A stretch of 64,000 nucleotides of DNA. It comes from Microbacterium sp. BK668. GTDB taxonomy: Bacteria > Actinomycetota > Actinomycetes > Actinomycetales > Microbacteriaceae. Where the stretch lies: positions 112,244 to 176,243 of the forward strand of contig NZ_SNWG01000003.1 in assembly GCF_004362195.1 (NCBI RefSeq), given 5' to 3'. The position numbers and the translations under genes are program-made. Shown piece after piece: positions 9,724-13,251 of the stretch (position 1 is the stretch's first letter; every line of letters begins with the position of its first letter). The notes under the pieces are model-generated. The model was given only the letters and a program-made list of their open reading frames with translations, made no database searches and had not been told where the DNA came from.

Positions 9724-10479
9724 ATGGCCGACAACGGGTCCACGATGCTGGTCGTGAGCGCTCATGCGGGCGACTTCGTCTGGCGCGCCGGCGGCGCCAT
9801 CGCCGCGACCACCCTGCGCGGCGGGCGCGCGGTCGTGGTGTGCCTCTCCTATGGAGAGCGCGGCGAGTCGGCGAGCCAGTGGCTGCAGGGCAAGAGCCTC
9901 GACGAGATCAAGGCGATCCGGCGCGACGAGGCGTCGGCTGCGGCATCCGCCCTGGGAGCGGGCATCGAGTTCCTCGACCTCGGTGACTACCCGCTCGTGG
10001 AGTCCGAGGATGCTGTCGCCAAGCTCGTCGACGTGTACCGGCGTGTGCAGCCCACCGTCGTGCTGACGCATCCGCTCGCCGACCCGTACAACGGCGACCA
10101 CCCCGCCGCCGCCCGGATGGCCCTGCAGGCCCGGGTGCTCGCGCAGGCGATCGGCGTCGCGAACTCGGACGGCTCGTTCCCCGGCGAGGACGACATCATC
10201 GGCGCCCCTCCGGTCTTCTTCTTCGAACCCCACCAGCCCGAGCAGAGCGACTTCAAGCCGAACGTCCTGCTCGACATCACCGAGGCCTTCCCGCTCAAGC
10301 GCGCGGCGATGGAGTGCCTGCCCGCGCAGAAGCACATGTGGTCGTACTACACCGACCTCGCGATCCGCCGCGGGGTGCAGGTCAGGCGCAACGCCGGCCC
10401 CAACCTCGGCCTCCCGCACGAGACGATGGGCGAGGCCTACGTCCGCTACTTCCCGCAGGTGACAGGCGTGCTCGAGTGA
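9724..10479 (+). CDS. galB: 4-oxalomesaconate hydratase, PIG-L/LmbE-type
   Basis: A 251-residue zinc hydratase predicted to add water to 4-oxalomesaconate, giving 4-carboxy-4-hydroxy-2-oxoadipate in gallate catabolism. GalB of Pseudomonas putida is the known PIG-L-fold member. The PIG-L metal motif is altered here in the GalB manner: [13 protein letters not shown] (His14, Asp17) in place of AHPDDE, with a second cluster [12 protein letters not shown]. The start at 9724 follows GAAGGAG. The assignment is strongly supported by neighbours: the next two genes encode the aldolase and the tautomerase of the same pathway, with overlaps. A generic N-acetylglucosaminyl deacetylase is the alternative, but its HPDDE motif is absent. 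Confidence 0.87.
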
Positions 10480-11189
10480 GCGCAGAGCCCGTGATCGTCA
10501 CCGACATCGCAAGAGCGGATGCCGCGACCGTCGATGCTCTCGCCGTCCACGGCGTCGCGACGGTGCACGAGGCGATGGGGCGGACCGGACTCGTCGGCCC
10601 CGGCATCCGTCCCATCCAGGACGGTGCGCGCATCGCGGGCTCCGCCGTGACGGTGCTGTCCTGGCCGGGCGACAACCTCATGATCCACGCGGCGATCGAG
10701 CAGTGCCGGGAAGGCGACGTGCTCGTCATCGCGACGACCTCGCCGTCGACCGACGGCGCATTCGGCGACCTCTTCGCGACGGCGCTCAAGGCGCGCGGAG
10801 TGCGCGGTCTCGTCACGACGACGGGAGTCCGGGATGTCGCGGACCTCCGCGCGATGGGATTCCCGGTGTGGTCCAGCGCCGTGCACGCACAGGGCACGGT
10901 CAAGGCGACGCCCGGCTCGGTGAACGTGCCGATCGTCGTCTCCGGCGCGACCGTGCGACCGGGCGACGTGGTGGTCGCCGACGACGACGGGGTCGTGATC
11001 GTCCCGCGACAGGAGGCCGCCGAAGCGCTGAGAGCCGCCGATGCGCGCGTCGAGAAAGAGGCCGCCGACCGGACCGCCTACGGTTCGGGCGCGCAGCTCA
11101 GCCTCGACCGGAAGGGCCTCCGTCAGACCCTCGCCGACCTCGGTGTTCGGTATGTGACGCAGGCGGAATACGACGATGGCGGCCGCTGA
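10476..11189 (+). CDS. galC: 4-carboxy-4-hydroxy-2-oxoadipate / 4-hydroxy-4-methyl-2-oxoglutarate aldolase
   Basis: A 237-residue class II aldolase of the RraA/LigK/GalC family. It should cleave 4-carboxy-4-hydroxy-2-oxoadipate to pyruvate and oxaloacetate. The GTG start at 10476 overlaps the galB stop (GTGA), indicating translational coupling. The family core is visible as RGVRGLVTTTGVRDVADLRAMG, containing the Arg-Asp pair implicated in metal and substrate binding, followed by a DVVVADDDGVVIVP strand. RraA-type RNase E inhibitor proteins share this fold, but the operon context and full aldolase length favour the catabolic enzyme. Confidence 0.88.
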   Translation: MSAEPVIVTDIARADAATVDALAVHGVATVHEAMGRTGLVGPGIRPIQDGARIAGSAVTVLSWPGDNLMIHAAIEQCREGDVLVIATTSPSTDGAFGDLFATALKARGVRGLVTTTGVRDVADLRAMGFPVWSSAVHAQGTVKATPGSVNVPIVVSGATVRPGDVVVADDDGVVIVPRQEAAEALRAADARVEKEAADRTAYGSGAQLSLDRKGLRQTLADLGVRYVTQAEYDDGGR

Positions 11190-12261
11190 CTTCGATCTCG
11201 CCGCGGCGGTGCGCGACGGCATCCCCTGCATCCTGATGCGCGGCGGCACGTCGAAGGGGGCGTACTTCCTCGCGGACGACCTGCCGTCGAACCACGGGGT
11301 GCGTGACGCCCTGCTCCTGAGCATCATGGGGAGCCCCGACGCGAAGCAGATCGACGGAATCGGGGGAGCGCACCCGCTCACGAGCAAGGTCGCGATCGTG
11401 TCGCGCTCGGCGGAGCCCGGCATCGACGTGGACTACCTCTTCCTTCAGGTGGCCGTCGACGAGCCGGTCGTCACCGATGCGCAGACGTGCGGCAACCTCC
11501 TCGCCGGAGTCGGCCCGTTCGCGGTCGAGCGCGGGCTCCTCGCGGCGGGCGGCGCGGAGACGACCGTCCGGATCCGCCTGGTGAACACGGGCGATGTCGC
11601 GACGGCCGTCTTCCCGACCCCCGGCGGGCGACCGGACTACGCGGGCAGTCAGGCCATCGACGGCGTGCCGGGCACGGCGGCGCGGGTAGAGCTCGAGCTG
11701 GCATCCGGCGGCCGGCCGCTCCTGCCCACCGGGCGCGCCTCCGACGAGGTCGCCGGCCACCGGGCCACTCTCGTCGACAACGGCATGCCGGTCGTCCTGC
11801 TGCGCGCCGACGAGTTCGGCGTGCGGGGCGATGAGACGCCGGCCGAACTCGAGGAGCGCGCGGACCTGCGGGCATCCGTCGAGGCGGTCCGCCTCGCTGC
11901 GGGAGCGCTCATGGGACTGGGCGACGTCGCGGACATGACCGTGCCGAAGATGTTCCTGCTCTCACCCCCGCGGGCCGCCGGCGCCATCTCGACCCGAGCC
12001 TTCATCCCGTCCCGCGTCCACCCGTCGATCGGGGTGCTCATGGCGGCGTCCGTCGCCGCGGGGATCAGCATCCCCGACTCCGTCGGCGCCGACCTCGCTC
12101 GGCTGCCCGAATCGGGGCCGATCGAGGTCGAGCATCCGTCCGGCTCCTTCCCCGCGCTCGTGCACGTCAGGCAGGCCGACGACGGCGCCTGGACGGCGAC
12201 GTCGACCTCGATCCGCACCGCCCGCAAGCTCTTCGACGGCGTCGTCTTCCCCCGCGCCTGA
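11176..12261 (+). CDS. galD: 4-oxalomesaconate tautomerase, PrpF-like isomerase
   Basis: A 361-residue protein of the PrpF/diaminopimelate epimerase-like fold, matching the length of GalD from Pseudomonas putida. It would convert the keto and enol forms of 4-oxalomesaconate so that GalB can hydrate the product. Diagnostic segments are PCILMRGGTSKGAYF near the N-terminus, IDGIGGAHPLTSKVAIV, and TCGNLLAGVGPFA. The ATG at 11176 lies 14 nt inside the end of galC, so the genes are coupled. The other family role, 2-methylaconitate isomerisation (PrpF), is unlikely because no methylcitrate genes are near. Confidence 0.88.
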   Translation: MAAADFDLAAAVRDGIPCILMRGGTSKGAYFLADDLPSNHGVRDALLLSIMGSPDAKQIDGIGGAHPLTSKVAIVSRSAEPGIDVDYLFLQVAVDEPVVTDAQTCGNLLAGVGPFAVERGLLAAGGAETTVRIRLVNTGDVATAVFPTPGGRPDYAGSQAIDGVPGTAARVELELASGGRPLLPTGRASDEVAGHRATLVDNGMPVVLLRADEFGVRGDETPAELEERADLRASVEAVRLAAGALMGLGDVADMTVPKMFLLSPPRAAGAISTRAFIPSRVHPSIGVLMAASVAAGISIPDSVGADLARLPESGPIEVEHPSGSFPALVHVRQADDGAWTATSTSIRTARKLFDGVVFPRA

Positions 12262-12300
12262 GCCCCGGACCCCCCTTCCCGCACGTCAGAGAGGACACCG

Positions 12301-13251
12301 ATGACCGACCACACCGCCTTCGACGTCGCGCATCTCGCGAACGTCGAGCTGCTGACACCCGAGTTCGACCGGAGCCTCTGGTTCTTCCGCGACCTGCTCG
12401 CGATGCGCGTCGTCGCCGAGGCGGGCGCCTCGGTCTTCCTGCGCACCTGGGACGAGTACGAGCTCTACACGATCAAGCTGACCGCGTCGGATGCCGCGGG
12501 TGTGGGCCGCACGTCGTTCCGAGCGGCGTCGCAGGAGGCGCTGGAGCGACGCGTCGCCGCGATCGAGGGGATGGGCCTCGGCGAGGGCTGGGGCGACGGC
12601 GAGGTCGGGACGGGCCCGACGTACTCGTTCCGAGACCCGGACGGGCACGCGATGGCGATCTACTACGAGACCGAGCGCTACCTCGCCGGCGAGGACGACC
12701 GGCCGGCGTTGAAGAACCAGGCATCCGCGTTCCCCGGTCGTGGCGTCAACGCGCGCCGGCTCGACCACATCAACTACCTGGCGAAGGATGTCGAGGCGAA
12801 CGGCGAGTTCCTCGCGCAGGCTCTGGGGATGCGGGAGTCCGAGCGGATCCGGCTCGACTCGGGGAGGTTCGCCGCGTGGTGGTTCCACTTCAGCCTCAAG
12901 TCGTACGACGTCGTCTACTCCGACGACTGGACGAAGCACGGCAACCGCCTGCACCACATCGCGTTCGCCCCCGACACGCGGGAGGACATCCTGAGAGCCG
13001 CTGACATCTTCCTCGAGAACGGCATCCACATCGAGTCCGGGCCGCACAAGCACGCGATCAACCAGACGTTCTTCCTCTACGTATGGGAGCCCGGCGGCAA
13101 CCGCATCGAGTTCGCCAACGCCGGCGCGCGGCTGCTGCTCGACCCCGACCAGCCCGTCGTCGAGTGGTCGGAGGCCGAGCGCAAGAAGGGTCAGGCGTGG
13201 GGCATGAAGACGATCGAGACCTTCCACACCCACGGCACGCCGCTCGTCTGA
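12301..13251 (+). CDS. Type I (VOC-fold) extradiol ring-cleavage dioxygenase; candidate gallate/3-O-methylgallate dioxygenase
   Basis: A 316-residue, two-domain vicinal-oxygen-chelate protein, the size of catechol 2,3-dioxygenases. The C-terminal domain has a likely Fe(II) triad: His156 in RLDHINYL, one of His218/His219 in RLHHIAF, and Glu270 in GGNRIEF. His and Tyr in the block around KHAINQTFFLYVWEP match the usual second-sphere residues. The position where related enzymes keep the catalytic acid-base His (the KAHDVAF block of XylE) reads SYDVVY here, giving Tyr202. The gene starts 39 bp after galD in the same direction. No LigAB-type gallate dioxygenase is in the window, so this is the natural candidate for ring opening. 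Substrate and cleavage position are inferred from context only. Confidence 0.78.
   Translation: MTDHTAFDVAHLANVELLTPEFDRSLWFFRDLLAMRVVAEAGASVFLRTWDEYELYTIKLTASDAAGVGRTSFRAASQEALERRVAAIEGMGLGEGWGDGEVGTGPTYSFRDPDGHAMAIYYETERYLAGEDDRPALKNQASAFPGRGVNARRLDHINYLAKDVEANGEFLAQALGMRESERIRLDSGRFAAWWFHFSLKSYDVVYSDDWTKHGNRLHHIAFAPDTREDILRAADIFLENGIHIESGPHKHAINQTFFLYVWEPGGNRIEFANAGARLLLDPDQPVVEWSEAERKKGQAWGMKTIETFHTHGTPLV

Follow-up and report, generated by a model that had tools for sequence, protein, structure and literature searches.

A VOC-fold extradiol dioxygenase as the probable gallate dioxygenase of a galBCD cluster in Microbacterium sp. BK668

Which enzyme opens the ring in a gallate pathway whose ring-cleavage gene belongs to an unexpected family? 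The question is raised by a stretch of 64,000 nucleotides from Microbacterium sp. BK668 (contig NZ_SNWG01000003.1, positions 112,244 to 176,243 of the forward strand; hereafter the window), in which galB, galC and galD are followed by the gene for an extradiol dioxygenase of the vicinal oxygen chelate (VOC) fold. Judging from sequence comparisons, this VOC protein is probably the gallate dioxygenase of the cluster, a type I enzyme replacing the LigAB-type GalA. The four genes are:

9724-10479, plus strand: galB, 4-oxalomesaconate hydratase (PIG-L family); PF02585 82.8 bits; 5cgz E 5.7e-75
10476-11189, plus strand: galC, 4-carboxy-4-hydroxy-2-oxoadipate aldolase (RraA-like); NF006731 323.1 bits against a cut-off of 179; 3noj E 1.6e-70
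11176-12261, plus strand: galD, 4-oxalomesaconate tautomerase (PrpF family); NF033377 444.6 bits against a cut-off of 440; 6p3j E 2.7e-113
12301-13251, plus strand: VOC-fold (type I) extradiol dioxygenase, proposed gallate dioxygenase; PF00903; predicted ligands His156, His219 and Glu270; Tyr202

Coordinates and family models agree with the arrangement described in the first-pass annotation, in which overlapping galB, galC and galD are followed at 39 bp by a VOC extradiol gene in the same direction. The galB/galC overlap is 4 bp if galC starts, as assumed, with the GTG at 10476, and the galC/galD overlap is 14 bp; the 39 bp between the galD stop (12261) and the start of the VOC open reading frame (12301) include a purine-rich stretch. 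All three gal genes are thus present and co-directional with the ring-cleavage gene. The sole solved relative of galB at E<=1e-10 is 5cgz, a 4-oxalomesaconate hydratase, and galC scored 293.7 bits against TIGR02798, slightly under the cut-off of 304.5.

What kind of protein is the candidate? Its Pfam matches are confined to PF00903 (69.3 bits) and PF13669, with no match to PF02900 (LigB), and its structure model (pLDDT 83.7) matches the folds of AphC (TM 0.89-0.91), XylE (0.85) and HPCD (0.83-0.84), all of which places it in the two-domain VOC fold. GalA of Pseudomonas putida KT2440 and DesB of Sphingobium SYK-6 carry out the reaction proposed here and feed the same downstream GalB, GalC and GalD, but they are type II enzymes of the LigB fold (PF02900), to which the PF00903 fold of the window protein is unrelated; DesB is termed a type II extradiol dioxygenase in PMC3962378. 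The scores against curated models of VOC enzymes were 301.4 bits for TIGR03211 (catechol 2,3-dioxygenase; cut-off 320.2) and 173.1 bits for TIGR02295 (HpaD; cut-off 321.4), so that neither equivalog name applies. The first of these falls barely under its cut-off, however, and by annotation the protein looks like a catechol dioxygenase. It might then be an ordinary 2,3-dioxygenase of catechol or alkylcatechols, or an accessory enzyme of detoxification, whose place beside the gal genes is accidental, the true gallate dioxygenase being another protein. Many records do annotate its relatives as catechol 2,3-dioxygenases, and in fold it comes closest to AphC and other catechol dioxygenases. We nevertheless hold this to be very improbable, for reasons of gene linkage and active-site sequence that are given below.

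Could a conventional gallate dioxygenase be encoded elsewhere in the same genome? The assembly (3.73 Mb in 7 contigs, 100% complete by program estimate) contains no PF02900 match, in a search that gave hits in 4 of the 14 genomes used as controls; a LigAB-type GalA at another site, which would have undercut the proposal, was looked for in this way and not found. Relatives of the VOC protein at E<=0.001 number three: itself and two proteins at about 30% identity, one of them HpaD-type. The gene of this HpaD-type VOC dioxygenase (contig C3, 82474-83358) and the gal cluster are about 40 kb apart, and a weak RraA-like match (30% identity) is close to the former. The genome also has two neighbouring Dioxygenase_C (intradiol) matches, as expected for protocatechuate 3,4-dioxygenase. 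Protocatechuate therefore has another route, and its 4,5-cleavage is disfavoured as a source of 4-oxalomesaconate (OMA) in this organism.

Is the proximity of the VOC gene to the gal genes accidental? Two genome samples were searched, one of 149 Micrococcales and one of 296 genomes across the phylum, the Microbacterium genome being counted in both. NF033377 (GalD) matched at E<=0.001 in 18 of the 149 Micrococcales genomes, with at least 430 bits in 7 and at most 302 bits in 11. In all 7 genomes of the former group a VOC relative lies at a distance from galD of 2-150 bp, taken from the match coordinates, and none of the 11 with a weaker GalD-like match has a VOC match at E<=1e-60. The VOC protein is present in 8 of the 149, the eighth (G135) having no GalD match. 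Across the phylum, GalD was found at E<=1e-100 in 5 of 296 genomes, all 5 with the VOC gene within 150 bp of galD. VOC matches at E<=1e-60 occurred in 12 of 296, and the 7 that are not beside a strong GalD comprise 6 from an actinobacterial family (f34) and one His-type protein (see below) at 38% identity. The adjacency of VOC and galD exceeds chance.

A wider view comes from 80 loci in named genomes, picked by VOC similarity, in which gal genes were counted if they lay on the same strand within 3.5 kb. All of galB, galC and galD stand beside the VOC gene in 57 of the 80, and at least one gal gene does so in 62 (46/48 Actinomycetota, 15/31 Pseudomonadota and 1/1 Bacteroidota). At least seven gene orders were seen, among them galB-galC-galD-VOC, VOC-galB-galC-galD and galB-VOC-galC-galD; orders that include a DUF1932 dehydrogenase gene are galD-galB-galC-DUF1932-VOC, VOC-galB-galC-DUF1932-galD, galB-galC-DUF1932-galD-VOC and DUF6282-galB-galC-VOC-DUF1932, and Thermus oshimai has VOC-GntR-DUF6282-galB-galC-oxidoreductase. 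That membership stays constant while the order changes argues for a shared pathway, and the persistence of the linkage through different orders and phyla is difficult to reconcile with a catechol dioxygenase that is there by chance. On the pAt plasmid of Agrobacterium tumefaciens 186 the order is galB-VOC-galC-galD-tannase, with no LigM match in about 10 kb on either side.

The active site sets these proteins apart as well. In an alignment of 113 VOC proteins, including that of the window, the 2-His-1-Glu triad (His156, His219, Glu270) and the equivalents of HPCD His248 and Tyr257 (His251, Tyr260) are kept in every row. At position 202, which sequence alignment pairs with His200 of HPCD (1f1x), there is Tyr in 103 rows and His in the 10 rows of a catechol/HpaD-type outgroup, and the Asp that follows is kept. 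The second-sphere His of the family is thus replaced by Tyr202 in the window protein. A His at this position is the acid-base catalyst in other extradiol dioxygenases. The same alignment places Ser246 and Gly297 opposite Arg243 and Arg293 of HPCD. PDB titles among the fold matches include H200 and Y257 variants. Identity to the window protein is 53-93% among the Tyr rows (its own row excluded) and 24-43% among the His rows. K138, R294, Q298 and T256 occur in all 103 Tyr rows, R294, Q298 and T256 in none of the 10 His rows, and K138 in one of them. Two database samples had Tyr202 in 117/117 and 118/119 proteins. With column 202 masked, a tree built from 50 thinned rows gathers the Tyr rows on a single branch (SH-aLRT 95), to be read with the program's warning that long outgroup branches meet; gal-linked rows lie on both sides of the first split of this branch, and the gal-linked f34 proteins on one side. 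Against an ordinary catechol dioxygenase, then, stand Tyr202, K138, R294 and Q298, which separate the protein from 10/10 outgroup members (bar the one Lys138), and the catechol meta-pathway operons of Thermus, in which the paralogue, at about 40% identity, is of His type. Together with K138, R294 and Q298, which are particular to this clade, Tyr202 may take part in binding or proton transfer, the part of Tyr202 being conjectural.

Tyr-type VOC genes lie beside galB/galC in Actinomycetota, Pseudomonadota, Deinococcota and one metagenome-assembled genome (MAG) of Bacteroidota, and the first-pass description of the route as actinobacterial was too narrow.

Known relatives share some features with the window protein and differ in others. 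HPCD/MndD (1f1x, 1f1r) has the same two-domain VOC fold and the same metal ligands, and its His248 and Tyr257 have counterparts in the window protein, but it is only about 26% identical in the fold alignment and has His200, Arg243 and Arg293 where the window protein has Tyr202, Ser246 and Gly297. The AphC alkylcatechol dioxygenase of Rhodococcus RHA1 (3lm4, 7q2a), the best fold match among the PDB structures searched, is 35% identical and retains His at the 202 position. The Tyr-type motifs are found in 9wgj_A, a protein from Bacillota with 50% identity to the window protein, deposited as 'Catechol 1,2-dioxygenase', a name at odds with its fold. Over 310 aa its sequence does not differ from that of a Geobacillus zalihae protein, and no publication on it was found in the open-licence literature. 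BLC23O of Bacillus ligniniphilus (283 aa) prefers alkylcatechols according to PMC8671467.

Where would the gallate come from? The genes around the cluster are:

725-2107, plus strand: third LigM/DesA-like GCV_T protein; PF01571; LigM 443.2, DesA 482.7, under both cut-offs
2187-3065, plus strand: IclR-family regulator; PF01614, PF09339
3078-3860, plus strand: DUF1932/NAD_binding_2 dehydrogenase; PF09130, PF03446
4127-5746, plus strand: tannase/feruloyl esterase family protein with a signal-peptide-like N-terminus (judged by eye); PF07519 E 3.7e-105
5805-6683, minus strand: second IclR-family regulator, N-terminus similar to the first; PF01614, PF09339
6735-8117, minus strand: second LigM/DesA-like GCV_T protein; PF01571; LigM 526.3 against 580, DesA 579.2 against 800, under both cut-offs
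8093-9496, minus strand: LigM-type vanillate/3-O-methylgallate O-demethylase, divergent from galB; NF047885 898.7 bits against a cut-off of 580
13274-14461, minus strand: cobalamin-independent methionine synthase-like protein, possible methyl acceptor enzyme; NF005085 549.8 against a cut-off of 313

In the proposed scheme, tannase and LigM would supply gallate, which would bind through two neighbouring hydroxyls to a metal that has His156, His219 and Glu270 as ligands and would, by analogy, be Fe(II). Addition of O2 and cleavage of the C4-C5 bond would then give OMA directly, with no need for a dehydrogenase or pyrone hydrolase because C5 bears the third hydroxyl, and GalD, GalB and GalC would convert OMA to pyruvate and oxaloacetate. 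Substrate, regiochemistry and metal are all inferred from sequence. HPCD, the best-studied relative, cleaves its substrate at the proximal 2,3 bond, and the 4,5-cleavage that OMA requires is to that extent a difficulty for the scheme.

In PMC8431788, the product formed from gallate by the type II enzyme PcaA is described as found in keto form only, consistent with a requirement for the tautomerase GalD.

The presence of LigM might suggest a different substrate, 3-O-methylgallate rather than gallate, cleaved beside LigM-type demethylases. A LigM homologue is indeed found within about 10 kb in 45/48 actinobacterial and 14/31 pseudomonadotal loci. A member of the LigM family, however, would first demethylate 3-O-methylgallate to gallate, and the stretches seen of several linked clusters, in Agrobacterium (L007), Thioclava (L123) and Paracoccaceae (L183), contain a tannase or lack a demethylase. 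We consider this substrate most unlikely.

The supply genes that the first-pass annotation had listed are present in part as described. The tannase and the methyl acceptor candidate are there, secretion of the former being judged only from its N-terminus; three O-demethylase homologues were found, one above the LigM cut-off and two under both curated cut-offs. With one demethylase homologue in three above cut-off and a DUF1932 dehydrogenase for which the scheme has no use, a self-contained route from syringyl units is less secure than had been claimed. The tannase and DUF1932 genes are flanked by the two similar IclR regulators (2187-3065, 5805-6683), which suggests a duplicated regulator-demethylase unit. 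A shared operator upstream of galB was considered and dropped: 9497-9723 holds only two 7-nt inverted repeats, maybe no more than chance.

What, then, does the DUF1932 dehydrogenase do? Such a DUF1932/NAD_binding_2 gene recurs by the VOC gene or galB/C/D in Rhizobiaceae, Thioclava, Pantoea, Thermus, family f34 and a Spirosoma MAG, in clusters both with and without galD. The gallate route has no redox step, so the dehydrogenase has no place in it, and this counts against the scheme. It would have a place if the VOC protein were a type I protocatechuate 4,5-dioxygenase: the DUF1932 protein would oxidise the semialdehyde, a hydrolase would open the pyrone, and the resulting OMA would pass to GalB and GalC. 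Plasmid pTHEOS01 of Thermus oshimai, where the cluster lies beside a 4-hydroxybenzoate 3-monooxygenase gene and lacks galD, speaks for such a pathway, as do family f34, with the order DUF6282-galB-galC-VOC-DUF1932 and no NF033377 match in any of 6 genomes, and the DUF1932 gene in the window itself. The window, however, has a tannase and galD, and its genome the intradiol dioxygenase genes. No pyrone hydrolase was recognised: the two clear Amidohydro_2 proteins of the genome, on another contig, gave no match to a Roseomonas amidohydrolase at E<=1e-5 (a third Amidohydro_2 match is marginal), and alphaproteobacterial plasmid clusters combine DUF1932 and galD with no annotated amidohydrolase in the stretch seen. 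For the window protein we regard protocatechuate as an unlikely substrate, although a somewhat less remote one than the two discussed above.

Elsewhere the balance may differ. A variant operon without galD consists of genes for DUF6282, galB, galC, a Tyr-type VOC and a DUF1932-like oxidoreductase (L179 8956-13622; L188 6784-10709). It is common to Thermus oshimai and f34, with 55-67% identity for most protein pairs and about 48% for DUF1932, and may represent a 4,5-cleavage pathway for protocatechuate made up of unrelated enzymes.

How general is the association, and does the VOC protein have competitors? Several results weigh against a single gallate function. The loci picked for their resemblance to the window protein include many from Microbacterium and are therefore no independent sample. 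Among the 103 Tyr-type loci, 22 lack any same-strand gal gene at a distance of up to 3.5 kb; these are mostly from Microvirga, the rest being from Roseomonas, Methylobacterium, Sinomonas, Tersicoccus, Nitratireductor, Chromohalobacter, a Rhodobacteraceae MAG, Pantoea At-9b and G135. A GalD was sought in 28 genomes where the VOC gene is not next to a complete gal set (some have a partial set): 15 have one above cut-off somewhere in the genome, one gave a weak match, and NF033377 matched nothing in the other 12. With gal-free loci and with galD missing in some lineages, protocatechuate 4,5-cleavage is possible there. LigB-fold proteins are also found among the carriers, with a PF02900 match in 29 of 40 genomes of a second set (mostly Alphaproteobacteria) and in 4 of the 7 Micrococcales with strong GalD, the other 3 having none, so in those carriers the VOC protein is not the sole candidate. 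By contrast, 35 of 46 actinobacterial VOC carriers searched have no PF02900 match, which leaves the VOC protein as the only extradiol candidate of the two folds in many actinobacteria.

In the one Microvirga case inspected, galB/C/D and the VOC gene belong to one cluster, about 17 kb apart, which also encodes LigA and LigB. Within 20 kb this cluster (L172 1-19901) combines galC-galB-galD with genes for an amidohydrolase, LigA/LigB, a MetE-like protein and the VOC protein, so both ring-cleaving folds occur in a single cluster. VOC relatives with no gal genes in the stretch seen are found on plasmids of Pantoea At-9b (L122 8001-8981) and Chimaeribacter arupi (L181 8007-8987); the Pantoea protein, the one of the pair that was aligned, is Tyr-type.

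Taken together, the first-pass proposal of the VOC protein as the enzyme of the GalA step is favoured by the lack of LigB in its own genome, by linkage conserved in several orders and phyla, and by the Agrobacterium plasmid that joins tannase, galBCD and VOC with no LigM nearby, and is qualified by possible activity on protocatechuate or 3-O-methylgallate in some lineages. A broader claim is evenly poised: Tyr-type VOC proteins may be an independent, widespread second invention of 4,5-cleavage of gallate (or of 3,4-dihydroxybenzoate-type substrates), in which the catalytic His was replaced by Tyr and the third substrate hydroxyl, or Tyr itself, took over its role. The window protein would be a member of a known superfamily in a non-orthologous role and not a new kind of system. 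No described VOC-fold gallate dioxygenase came up in searches of an open-licence library, subscription journals and preprints lying outside their scope, and the novelty of the enzyme is provisional.

Why would it matter? If the proposal is true, there are two unrelated enzymatic solutions for the key step in recycling the carbon of tannins and syringyl lignin, and annotation that seeks a LigAB-type GalA overlooks the pathway in many actinobacteria. The exchange of His for Tyr is a natural test of the part that the second-sphere acid-base residue plays in extradiol cleavage. Given one assayed member, genes now labelled catechol 2,3-dioxygenase could be relabelled by the rule Tyr202, K138-N139, R294 and Q298.

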